Source: a virus. Taken from it: a DNA stretch of 31,111 bases. Where the stretch lies: IMG/VR virus record IMGVR_UViG_3300043119_000569, positions 1 through 31,111 of that record. One strand, given 5' to 3'. The notes under the pieces were generated by a model that ran no database searches, was not told the DNA's origin, and saw only the letters and a program-made list of their open reading frames with translations. Made by a program: the position numbers and the translations under genes. How positions within the stretch are numbered: position 1 is the stretch's first letter; every line of letters starts with the position of its first letter. Positions 1-5,908 of the stretch are shown piece by piece.

Positions 1-99
1 TTTCATCCTGACCCCAAGGCGTTGCTGGCGGAGGTTAATCGCGAACCAGCACTGCACTCCTTGGAGTTTCGCACAACTTGCATGTGCTCGTCAGAGGGT
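1..99. other. Left-edge segment, no gene recognised
   Basis: No convincing coding frame is seen. On the - strand (downstream of the tRNA) short hairpins are visible: ACTCC-AA-GGAGT near 56-67, a GCACA/TGTGC stem near 70-90, and a CTGAC/GTCAG pair that could close the whole segment. It may be the trailing part of the tRNA transcript or the start of another structured RNA cut by the window edge. Confidence 0.3.
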
Positions 100-174
100 T
101 GGTACTTGATACGGGAGTCGAACCCGTCTTGTCCGCATGAAAGGCGGGTGTCCTAGCCGATAGACGAATCAAGT
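100..174 (-). tRNA. tRNA-Glu (anticodon UUC)
   Basis: Read on the - strand, the segment folds as a full cloverleaf. The acceptor stem ACTTGAT/ATCAAGT has 7 perfect pairs. The D arm contains the GTC...GGAC pairing. The anticodon arm has the loop CTTTCAT, giving anticodon TTC (Glu), with one C-A mismatch at the top pair of its stem. The T arm is ACGGG-TTCGACT-CCCGT. The discriminator A is followed by an encoded CCA. It lies about 4 nt downstream of a candidate structured RNA and is probably made from the same transcript. A phage tRNA-Glu may supplement host decoding; this is inference from what is known of phage tRNAs. Confidence 0.93.
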
Positions 175-177
175 GTA

Positions 178-472
178 AAAAGTGGGCGGTGACTAGAGAA
201 TTCGGTCACCATCAAGTTGTTATCTGGACATATGTGCCAGACTCATAACACCCATAATAAAATACTTTGCAAATACTAACGTACGCTTTCGATCCACGTG
301 GAAGACACTTACAAGCCCCTGCAGAGGCGGTCATGCGCACCTTCACGATTGTTACACTAGCAACCTATGCCTAGTCAAAGTATTTTATTATGTGTGCTAA
401 GGGCTGTGGCTCGGACTTTCCCACAATTAAGACGTTGTTCGGCTACCGCTCGCACCGCTGTCACCCTGTAAT
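178..472 (-). ncRNA. Candidate structured noncoding RNA upstream of tRNA-Glu
   Basis: A consensus promoter on the - strand (479-507) would start a transcript near 472 that runs without a good reading frame to the tRNA. The RNA shows a long-range helix in which 399-376 pairs with 269-246: 17 perfect pairs, a 1x1 mismatch, then 6 more. It closes a domain of about 106 nt that holds smaller stems such as GCCTC-TGCA-GGGGC and GGTTG/CAATC. A GTGG...CCAC stem at 424-406 surrounds GGAAAGTCCGAGC, which matches the conserved CR-I segment of bacterial RNase P RNA. The 3' end has GGTGAC/GTCACC and could also pair with the 5' GGTGAC. The partner strand CR-V (GGCTTA) was not found, so RNase P identity is only a hypothesis. 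It may be a new phage RNA. Confidence 0.5.
246..399. repeat. 24-nt inverted repeat (one mismatch) within the candidate RNA
   Basis: The arms are 246-269 and 376-399. The inner 17 bp (CATAATAAAATACTTTG and its complement) are perfect, followed by one mismatch and six further pairs including one G-U. The arms contain the AAAGTATT core that also occurs in the iterated elements to the right. Confidence 0.85.
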
Positions 473-478
473 ATATCT

Positions 479-507
479 ATTATACGCCGTTTAAGATAGC
501 CGTTCAA
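479..507 (-). promoter_or_regulatory. Sigma70 promoter of the structured RNA and tRNA-Glu
   Basis: On the - strand TTGAAC (507-502) is separated by exactly 17 bp from TATAAT (484-479). The start would fall near 472, just before the structured segment. This is one of the best-spaced promoters in the window. Confidence 0.8.
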
Positions 508-589
508 GTAAAAAATTAGACAATCGTTGCAACCAGACTACCTTACTAAATATGACTAATTGTTGTCGTGAGGTTGAGTAAGTGTTCAT
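491..589 (-). CDS. Possible 32-residue peptide coupled to a mini leader ORF
   Basis: An ATG at 589 opens 32 codons ending at TAA 491-493. The start overlaps the TGA stop of the 14-codon frame upstream as ATGA, a layout typical of translational coupling. The product is short, with a mixed hydrophobic and basic stretch (LVIFSKVVWLQRL), and no family is recognised. Its last codons overlap the -35 region of the structured-RNA promoter. It may be a real small peptide or a chance frame in an RNA leader. Confidence 0.25.
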   Translation of the reverse strand: MNTYSTSRQQLVIFSKVVWLQRLSNFLLERLS

Positions 590-630
590 TTGCTTGCGGG
601 CACCAAATAACGAAGTTGTTTGGTATTCAT
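586..630 (-). CDS. Possible 14-residue leader peptide
   Basis: An ATG at 630 follows a purine-rich GGGAAGGG about 5 nt upstream, on the transcript starting near 652. The frame has 14 codons (MNTKQLRYLVPASK) and its stop overlaps the next ATG as ATGA. The start region AATGAATAC is exactly complementary to the GTATTCATT loop of the + strand RNAs in the cassettes to the right. Too short to be sure. Confidence 0.25.
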   Translation of the reverse strand: MNTKQLRYLVPASK

Positions 631-658
631 TAAGCCCTTCCCGACTGTCTAAGTATAT

Positions 659-687
659 ATTATACAGTGATTGGGGTTGAAGATCAA
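659..687 (-). promoter_or_regulatory. Sigma70 promoter for the leader region at 490-650
   Basis: TTGATC (687-682), 17 bp, TATAAT (664-659) on the - strand. It lies just after the HTH gene at 719-1027 and would start a transcript near 652 covering the two mini frames and, by read-through, the structured RNA. Confidence 0.7.
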
Positions 688-718
688 GACAAAATTTCCT
701 GACCCTCAACCGCCGCGA

Positions 719-1027
719 TTACTGCAAGCGTGCAACCAGTGCTTCCAGCACATCGTGGTTGGCCTTTTCCAGGCTTTCAAACACTTCTGGAGCCACGCCG
801 CAACGTTGTGCAAGCAGGTCAACCAGTTCGGCTTTCTTAACCCGTGCAACGCCTTTGTTGGGGGTCTTGGCCACGTACACGCCTTCGCGTGAGAGCTTGG
901 CAACTACGCTACGCACAGTTTTGCCCAGTGTCTCGGCAAGTTGCTCCACGGTTTTACCAGCTTGGTAGCCGGTGACGAGTTCCACGGTTTGTTCGGGGGT
1001 ATAGTTCTGAGGGATCGCTTTAGTCAT
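719..1027 (-). CDS. Small HTH-like protein, paralogue A
   Basis: The 102-residue protein has an N-terminal part (about residues 8-50) that looks like a helix-turn-helix: YTPEQTVELVTGYQAG, then VEQLAETLGKTVRSVVAKLS. A lysine-rich linker (about 50-68) and a short C-terminal helical part follow. It is clearly paralogous to the proteins at 2074-2406 and 5585-5908; the core LGKTVRSVVAKLSRE is identical in all three. Such small proteins occur in many phages and are usually annotated as hypothetical. DNA binding and a regulatory role are inferred from the fold and from the repeated promoter-like cassettes around it. The start at 1027 is supported by AAAGGA upstream and by its own promoter at 1068-1096. 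Confidence 0.85.
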   Translation of the reverse strand: MTKAIPQNYTPEQTVELVTGYQAGKTVEQLAETLGKTVRSVVAKLSREGVYVAKTPNKGVARVKKAELVDLLAQRCGVAPEVFESLEKANHDVLEALVARLQ

Positions 1028-3915: not shown

Positions 3916-4131
3916 TTAAAAAAAGTTGTTGTAAATTCCCAACAAGTTAGCACAGAAAAAAGTGCCATTCAAAACGCCCAAAGCCTTATCACGTTTTACA
4001 AAAGCCACGATAAGCCAAGCCAGTGAACCAAAAGTAAACAAAATGTAACCAATTTTAAACATTGCGCTTGCAACTGCAAACGACCCTAAAATTGAAACAA
4101 AAGTACCAAACCAAGACAAGATATTAAGCAT
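3916..4131 (-). CDS. Small membrane protein with three predicted helices
   Basis: The start is set at 4131 (71 residues) because this ATG overlaps the stop of the upstream SprT-like gene by 8 nt, suggesting coupled translation; a longer frame to 4176 has no such support. Hydrophobic segments lie at about residues 3-20, 24-42 and 50-66, and the protein ends NLLGIYNNFF. The hydrophobic half-repeat and the N-rich end recall small PnuC-like or SWEET-like phage membrane proteins, but no signature is clear. It would sit in the inner membrane. Confidence 0.72.
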   Translation of the reverse strand: MLNILSWFGTFVSILGSFAVASAMFKIGYILFTFGSLAWLIVAFVKRDKALGVLNGTFFCANLLGIYNNFF

Positions 4132-5584: not shown

Positions 5585-5908
5585 TCAGGTCTTTTCAGCC
5601 TTAATAAAATCTGCAATCGCTTTGAGTGCAGTTTTGTTAGCTTTGGTTAGCGATTCTACATCAGCTTCACCCAAGCCCAGAGCATCACCAATGTAATCGG
5701 CAACAGCATCCTTTTTTACTACAGCTTCACCAGTCTTGGAAACATAAGTTTTAGCTTTGTAAACCTTCTCGCGTGAGAGCTTGGCAACAACCGAACGAAC
5801 AGTCTTACCCAATGCCTCAGCAATGGATTCAACAGTAGTACCGGCTTGGTAGTCGGCAACCATCTGAGCTGTCTGCTCAGGCGTATAATTCACAGTCTTG
5901 GTAGTCAT
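5585..5908 (-). CDS. Small HTH-like protein, paralogue C
   Basis: The 107-residue protein has the shared plan of the three paralogues. The N-terminal part (YTPEQTAQMVADYQAG, VESIAEALGKTVRSVVAKLS) looks like a helix-turn-helix, followed by a lysine-rich linker (KVYKAKTYVSKTGEAVVKKD) and a helical C-terminus (LGEADVESLTKANKTALKAI). It is more like B than A. The start at 5908 has GAAAGGA 7 nt upstream. A weak promoter-like TTGCAT-17-TATACT lies within the small membrane gene upstream, so it may also be co-transcribed with the two genes before it. Its function is probably regulatory, by analogy only. Confidence 0.85.
   Translation of the reverse strand: MTTKTVNYTPEQTAQMVADYQAGTTVESIAEALGKTVRSVVAKLSREKVYKAKTYVSKTGEAVVKKDAVADYIGDALGLGEADVESLTKANKTALKAIADFIKAEKT

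Follow-up and report, generated by a model that had tools for sequence, protein, structure and literature searches.

GOLLD and ROOL are elaborate phage-borne RNAs that form RNA-only cages; ROOL is a large RNA of phages and prophages often found near tRNAs, and the linkers of GOLLD sometimes hold phage tRNAs (PMC12286853). Theta ribozymes occur beside phage tRNAs (PMC10879173), and the hammerheads of prophages, which flank genes, were proposed to cut polycistronic messages (PMC3088659). In the locus described here a known ribozyme and a tRNA stand together with domains for which we found no description, and we rate this large, elaborate RNA of phages as a new family. The literature searched, with subscription papers and preprints mostly outside its scope, contained no description of a hammerhead built into a large phage RNA. 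With a probability of about 0.85 the structured RNA examined here (178-472) belongs to the 5' half of a large, modular and non-coding RNA which uncultured T5-like phages carry and which a hammerhead ribozyme would cut in two.

The window, i.e. the whole stretch of 31,111 nucleotides that was analysed, is a 31-kb virus record whose left end is cut off, and every feature treated here lies on its minus strand. A second copy of the locus, L004 in the 61.5-kb contig IMGVR_UViG_3300043103_000244, is identical to window 1-720 and extends beyond the window end (window position = 11028 - L004 position). The features are:

719-1027 (minus strand): upstream gene for a small DNA-binding protein (D5-like) of 102 aa, phrog_323 'transcriptional regulator, D5-like', E 3e-7
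659-687 (minus strand): promoter P1, TTGATC-17-TATAAT, with the inverted repeat GGGTCA..TGACCC flanking its -35
510-652 (minus strand): separate small RNA of about 143 nt, closing stem TTAGACAGTC/GATTGTCTAA, followed by TTTTTT
479-507 (minus strand): promoter P2 of the large RNA, sigma-70-like TTGAAC-17-TATAAT; the TATAAT -10 box is kept before the RNA start in most homologues
1-472 (minus strand): the first (5') 40% or so of the large non-coding RNA, which continues past the contig end at L004 11028-11733
400-467 (minus strand): domain D1, three-way junction; covariation 0.288 vs 0.071 shuffled, 0/500 (26 sequences); model R2 62 bits
376-391 (minus strand): arm helix between D1 and D2, 5' strand, 16 pairs, by comparative pairing
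254-269 (minus strand): arm helix, 3' strand, 16 pairs, by comparative pairing
183-254 (minus strand): domain D2, second copy of the three-way junction; covariation 0.452 vs 0.143 shuffled, 0/500 (19 sequences); R2 77 bits
100-174 (minus strand): tRNA-Glu(TTC) with encoded CCA, between D2 and the hammerhead, by ARAGORN and Rfam
about 101-6 (minus strand): predicted type I hammerhead ribozyme (open stem I), by alignment A1 and covariation; model R1 84.7 bits on window 3-101, where L004, identical to the window, belongs to the R1 training set

The terminase of the window has 49-50% identity to terminases of Vibrio phages with genomes of 112-118 kb, and it also matches many phages of Salmonella and Escherichia. 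From these matches and the D5-like gene we infer that the phage carrying the RNA is T5-like. The D5-like gene served as a syntenic anchor: loci were fetched by it and searched with L004 10310-11800 as a query (nhmmer), and homologues of the RNA lie directly after the gene in about 60-65 uncultured phage loci. When cultured phages were searched with the RNA the tRNA alone matched, and the neighbouring gene gave no match. A raw scan of viral contigs with the motif GGGAAAGTCCGAGCC returned 27 stretches, one of which is the L004 contig itself (L099), and the others were unmatched in the nhmmer search with the RNA. Several paralogues of the D5-like protein lie on either side of the RNA locus in one genome (window 719-1027, 2074-2406 and 5585-5908, L004 11939-12250, all on the minus strand). 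One contig, IMGVR_UViG_3300043436_004120, holds two copies of the RNA (L007 and L143) that are 90% identical over about 700 bases; they may come from two strains, from a duplication or from the assembly.

In most loci the order is constant: the gene is followed by P1, the small RNA of about 143 nt with its T run, P2 and the large RNA. The small RNA (652-510) is kept in most homologues and its closing stem shows compensated changes (CAGTCG/CGACTG, CAGTTG/CAACTG); in L053-L064 another sequence of similar closed shape stands in for it. The inverted repeat around the P1 -35 box lies at about 710-670 (minus strand) immediately past the stop of the upstream gene, and its arms co-vary among phages (GGGGACA/TGTCCCC, GGGGAGAAG/CTTCTCCCC). 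The large RNA begins at (A/T)GGGTGACAGCGG across homologues.

An earlier note on this DNA had placed a structured RNA with its own promoter at 178-472, leading straight into the tRNA. Both the promoter, which is P2 at 507-479 with its -10 box conserved in most homologues, and the start were correct, and the existence of the structured RNA is confirmed, yet it forms merely the middle of a larger molecule. The end at 178 was wrong, because the RNA continues through the tRNA past the contig end, so that tRNA-Glu lies inside the transcript and not beside it. In L004 the large RNA comprises about 1.17 kb, from 10562 (about window position 472) through tRNA-Glu to 11733 at an intrinsic terminator, GCCCCCAAGATTCGCTATCTTGGGGGC-TTTTGTTTT. 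A terminator AAGCCCC..GGGGCTTTTG is found about 0.6-1.7 kb past the gene in most complete members, which implies a length of about 0.45-1.5 kb for the large RNA, a range in which a few ends were placed by hand. As the note had held, the RNA is non-coding: neither it nor its homologues contain a long conserved reading frame. Single-sequence folding of the large piece was not significant (z about -1.8); the support for RNA structure is comparative.

D1 and D2 are paralogous three-way-junction domains of one architecture: a GGG/CCC stem closes the domain, a helix of 3 pairs carries a hairpin that varies, and a further hairpin completes the junction. When both were aligned jointly in one common register, 96% of the cells were paired and covariation was 0.593 vs 0.197; the 3-pair helix was 100% paired with the types UA/AU and UA/CG/AU. 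Model R2, built from D1 and D2, matched each RNA once or twice and, in a search of 835 kb, nothing outside the large RNA. The first pair of the arm helix is 10 letters past D1 and its end abuts D2. Here a long-range helix of 23 pairs had been predicted; the helix exists, with support for its 16 inner pairs (391-376/269-254). All 16 are formed in most of the 12 homologous linkers, with many compensatory changes and nearly every position altered somewhere. The exceptions are mismatches in L006 and L044, and L011, which pairs differently because of an insertion. A lack of covariation in the long helix had been named as evidence against the RNA; the helix is in fact strongly compensated.

The tRNA-Glu has a complete cloverleaf with anticodon TTC and the CCA end. 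It was present in 12 of the 44 loci scanned and absent in 32, some of these loci being incomplete. In L067 it occupies the position of the arm helix, while it lies between D2 and the hammerhead in the window, which marks it as a guest module.

The tRNA is followed immediately by the letters [ACCCU]CUGACGA-GCACA-UGCAAGU-UGUGC-GAAA-[stem III]-U-C|AGGA. These are the parts of a hammerhead, which the earlier note had missed, with CUGACGA at 94-88, stem II at 87-71 and stem III closing on U11; cleavage is expected between C10 (C17) and A9. The core, CUGANGA ... GAA, is invariant in all 43 sequences of alignment A1, as is A15.1-U16.1. N7 is U or C, and H17 is C in 39 and A in 4 of these sequences and never G. 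Stems I, II and III occur in hammerhead order with a covariation of 0.309 vs 0.128 shuffled (0/500), and slid controls reached at most 0.113. Compensated changes comprise UA/AU/CG and CG/GC/AU/UA in stem II and UA/AU in stem I. The transcript most likely cuts itself after window base 10.

Stem I of the window copy is short, with three pairs, one mismatch and one pair. When single sequences were folded, most members had a competing fold that lacks the full hammerhead and is somewhat more stable, usually by 0.4-3 kcal/mol, and the z of about -1.5 for the ribozyme was not decisive. The short stem I and the competing fold count against the self-cleavage predicted from the sequence. Rfam Hammerhead_3 aligned to the same place and strand in L033 with 20.1 bits, below the cut-off of 48.5, probably because stem III holds an extra domain. 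RF00163 and RF02276 remained below their cut-offs here and likewise on an ordinary-looking hammerhead in the contig of L142 (16.6 bits).

When 2.9 million viral contigs were scanned with a strict DNA pattern for the ribozyme, 40 stretches matched, and all but L113, L132 and L142 are contigs of this RNA family; seven contigs were new and inspected, four of them belonging to the family, and the rest were already known family contigs. The same pattern had no match in bacterial and archaeal genomes (genome_contigs). L113, L132 and L142 are ordinary hammerheads of other phages; they lie between protein genes, have a short stem III and score below the Rfam cut-offs where tested. Stem II is changed or enlarged in the hammerheads of L044, L047 and L052, which have GAUGG.. 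for GAGC... Three members, L068, L080 and L081, have no recognisable hammerhead, implying that cutting is not essential in every member and that the ribozyme is modular as well.

The 3' half of the RNA, beyond the window, is a mosaic. A 3' domain of two hairpins and a pseudoknot was supported in 17 aligned members (0.395 vs 0.144, 0/500), and in L004 CAGACCCUAAACUGCAC could pair over a long range with GUGCAGUUUAGGGUCAG. Taken together, on sequence and covariation P2, D1 and D2, the 16-pair arm, the optional tRNA-Glu, the hammerhead, the 3' domain and the intrinsic terminator belong to one modular RNA gene.

A motif, YRCRRYTTAGGGTCRG, is dispersed in these genomes. It occurs at window positions 4082, 6475, 15557 and 20365, all on the minus strand, as well as in L004 and 19 further loci; the substrate strand of the hammerhead is a copy of this motif, and so is one element of the 3' domain. 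TTAGGGTC was found outside the RNA 141 times in 20 loci vs 5.7 expected, with equal strands. The D5-like protein may bind at the dispersed motif. Trans-cleavage of phage messages by the hammerhead at the dispersed TTAGGGTC sites was not supported, given the equal strands and a lack of sense bias (38 sense, 46 antisense).

The earlier note had considered a reduced, diverged RNase P-like RNA which might process the adjoining tRNA-Glu, on the basis of a 13-letter match to CR-I. The match, GGAAAGTCCGAGC, does lie within a GTGG/CCAC stem as described; it is the loop of the hairpin at 424-404, the second hairpin of the covarying D1. In homologues the stem and CCGAG are kept, while the AAAGU part is swapped for unrelated letters of other lengths. 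The suggested cmsearch gave no match of any Rfam RNase P model on the region at E<=10, and RNaseP_bact_a found nothing in 11 homologous contigs while detecting its target in 11 of 14 control genomes, so that the class A controls worked. A P4 partner or CR-V segment was not found, and most homologues lack the tRNA. Thus the CR-I match is chance, bacterial RNase P RNA of class A or B was rejected with practically no probability left to it, and the note's other option, in which the phage RNA is new and unrelated and the match accidental, was the correct one. The tRNA might also be the reason for the ribozyme. If the hammerhead only trimmed the 3' side of a phage tRNA, as might be supposed from the association of theta ribozymes with phage tRNAs (PMC10879173) and from L004, where the ribozyme starts immediately after the tRNA CCA, the remainder would be leader and trailer without a function of their own. 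Yet most members without a tRNA keep the hammerhead, L068 has a tRNA and no ribozyme, and about 95 nt separate the two in L005 and L007. Moreover, after the cut the entire ribozyme would stay attached to the tRNA, and D1, D2, the arm and the 3' domain covary independently. Because the tRNA is optional and changes place, the ribozyme is not merely a tRNA-trimming device, and we regard this explanation as very unlikely.

A highly diverged GOLLD or ROOL would likewise be phage-borne, large and elaborate, and phage tRNAs are sometimes carried in GOLLD linkers (PMC12286853). However, the GOLLD covariance model had no match on the large RNA at E<=10; a weak score of 13.5 bits lay elsewhere in the contig, off the RNA, and controls scored too. 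GOLLD was therefore not supported. The ROOL model gave no match in 10 contigs, with an equally silent positive control, and none in the Rfam scans of L004 and L033. At curated thresholds Rfam 15 matched nothing but the tRNA, and permissive scans added weak matches only. In the literature searched we found no paper that links GOLLD with a hammerhead, and we know of no hammerhead in ROOL. Covariance models thus detected no kinship to GOLLD or ROOL, for ROOL with a silent control, and we consider such an origin highly improbable. The hammerhead might instead be a dead relic that is conserved for the DNA motif TTAGGGTC or for its RNA shape and not for cutting. The copying of the dispersed motif in the substrate strand and the competing alternative fold would fit with this. 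Yet the entire core is invariant, including GAA and CUGANGA away from the TTAGGGTC motif, H17 is restricted to C or A, and the changes in stem I preserve pairing. A relic appears unlikely, and we favor the view of a large modular RNA that is cut by its own hammerhead.

In the mechanism we propose, transcription would start from P2, and D1, the rigid arm of 16 pairs and D2 would fold. The hammerhead would cut during transcription and separate C17 (window 10) from the A that follows it (window 9), to yield a 5' product of about 463 nt with D1, the arm, D2, the tRNA and the ribozyme, ending in a 2',3'-cyclic phosphate, and a 3' product of about 0.7 kb with a 5'-OH. Where a tRNA is present it would be freed by host RNase P and 3' nucleases. 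As the least certain step, both RNA bodies might serve as structural RNAs in infection, as proposed for GOLLD and ROOL, the nearest parallels; by this analogy we put the idea forward tentatively. It is doubtful, though conceivable, that the family is a new class of giant phage RNA in two pieces, with an optional tRNA-Glu in the 5' piece, whose hammerhead-cut halves remain associated or join with more copies, as in the cages of GOLLD and ROOL. Very few RNAs of such size and complexity are known from bacteria or phages, and what GOLLD, ROOL and OLE do has yet to be settled. A further phage RNA family without detectable kinship to these, with a movable guest tRNA and a built-in ribozyme, would offer a comparative handle on the roles of such RNAs, and cutting, assembly and tRNA release become directly testable.

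Compared with known systems, the RNA shares with GOLLD (RF02032) that it is large, elaborate and phage-borne, and the variable linker of GOLLD can carry a phage tRNA (PMC12286853). It differs by the missing covariance-model match, by other modules, by the hammerhead inside and by a length of up to about 1.5 kb. ROOL (RF03087) resembles it as a large phage or prophage RNA often near tRNAs (PMC12286853), whereas no match to its model was found, with a silent control. Theta ribozymes, like the predicted ribozyme here, are self-cleaving and adjoin phage tRNAs, but their fold is HDV-like and not that of a hammerhead, and in the large phage RNA the tRNA is optional (PMC10879173). The prophage hammerheads also reside in phage genomes (PMC3088659), while the hammerhead here lies within a dedicated non-coding RNA. 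With the hammerheads of Rfam clan CL00010 (RF00163, RF00008, RF02276) it has in common the complete core, three stems in order, a GUC (sometimes GUA) site and the type I topology. In contrast to these, its stem III bears an extra domain and it scores under the Rfam thresholds; a natural hammerhead would here gain a fixed place within a larger structured RNA.
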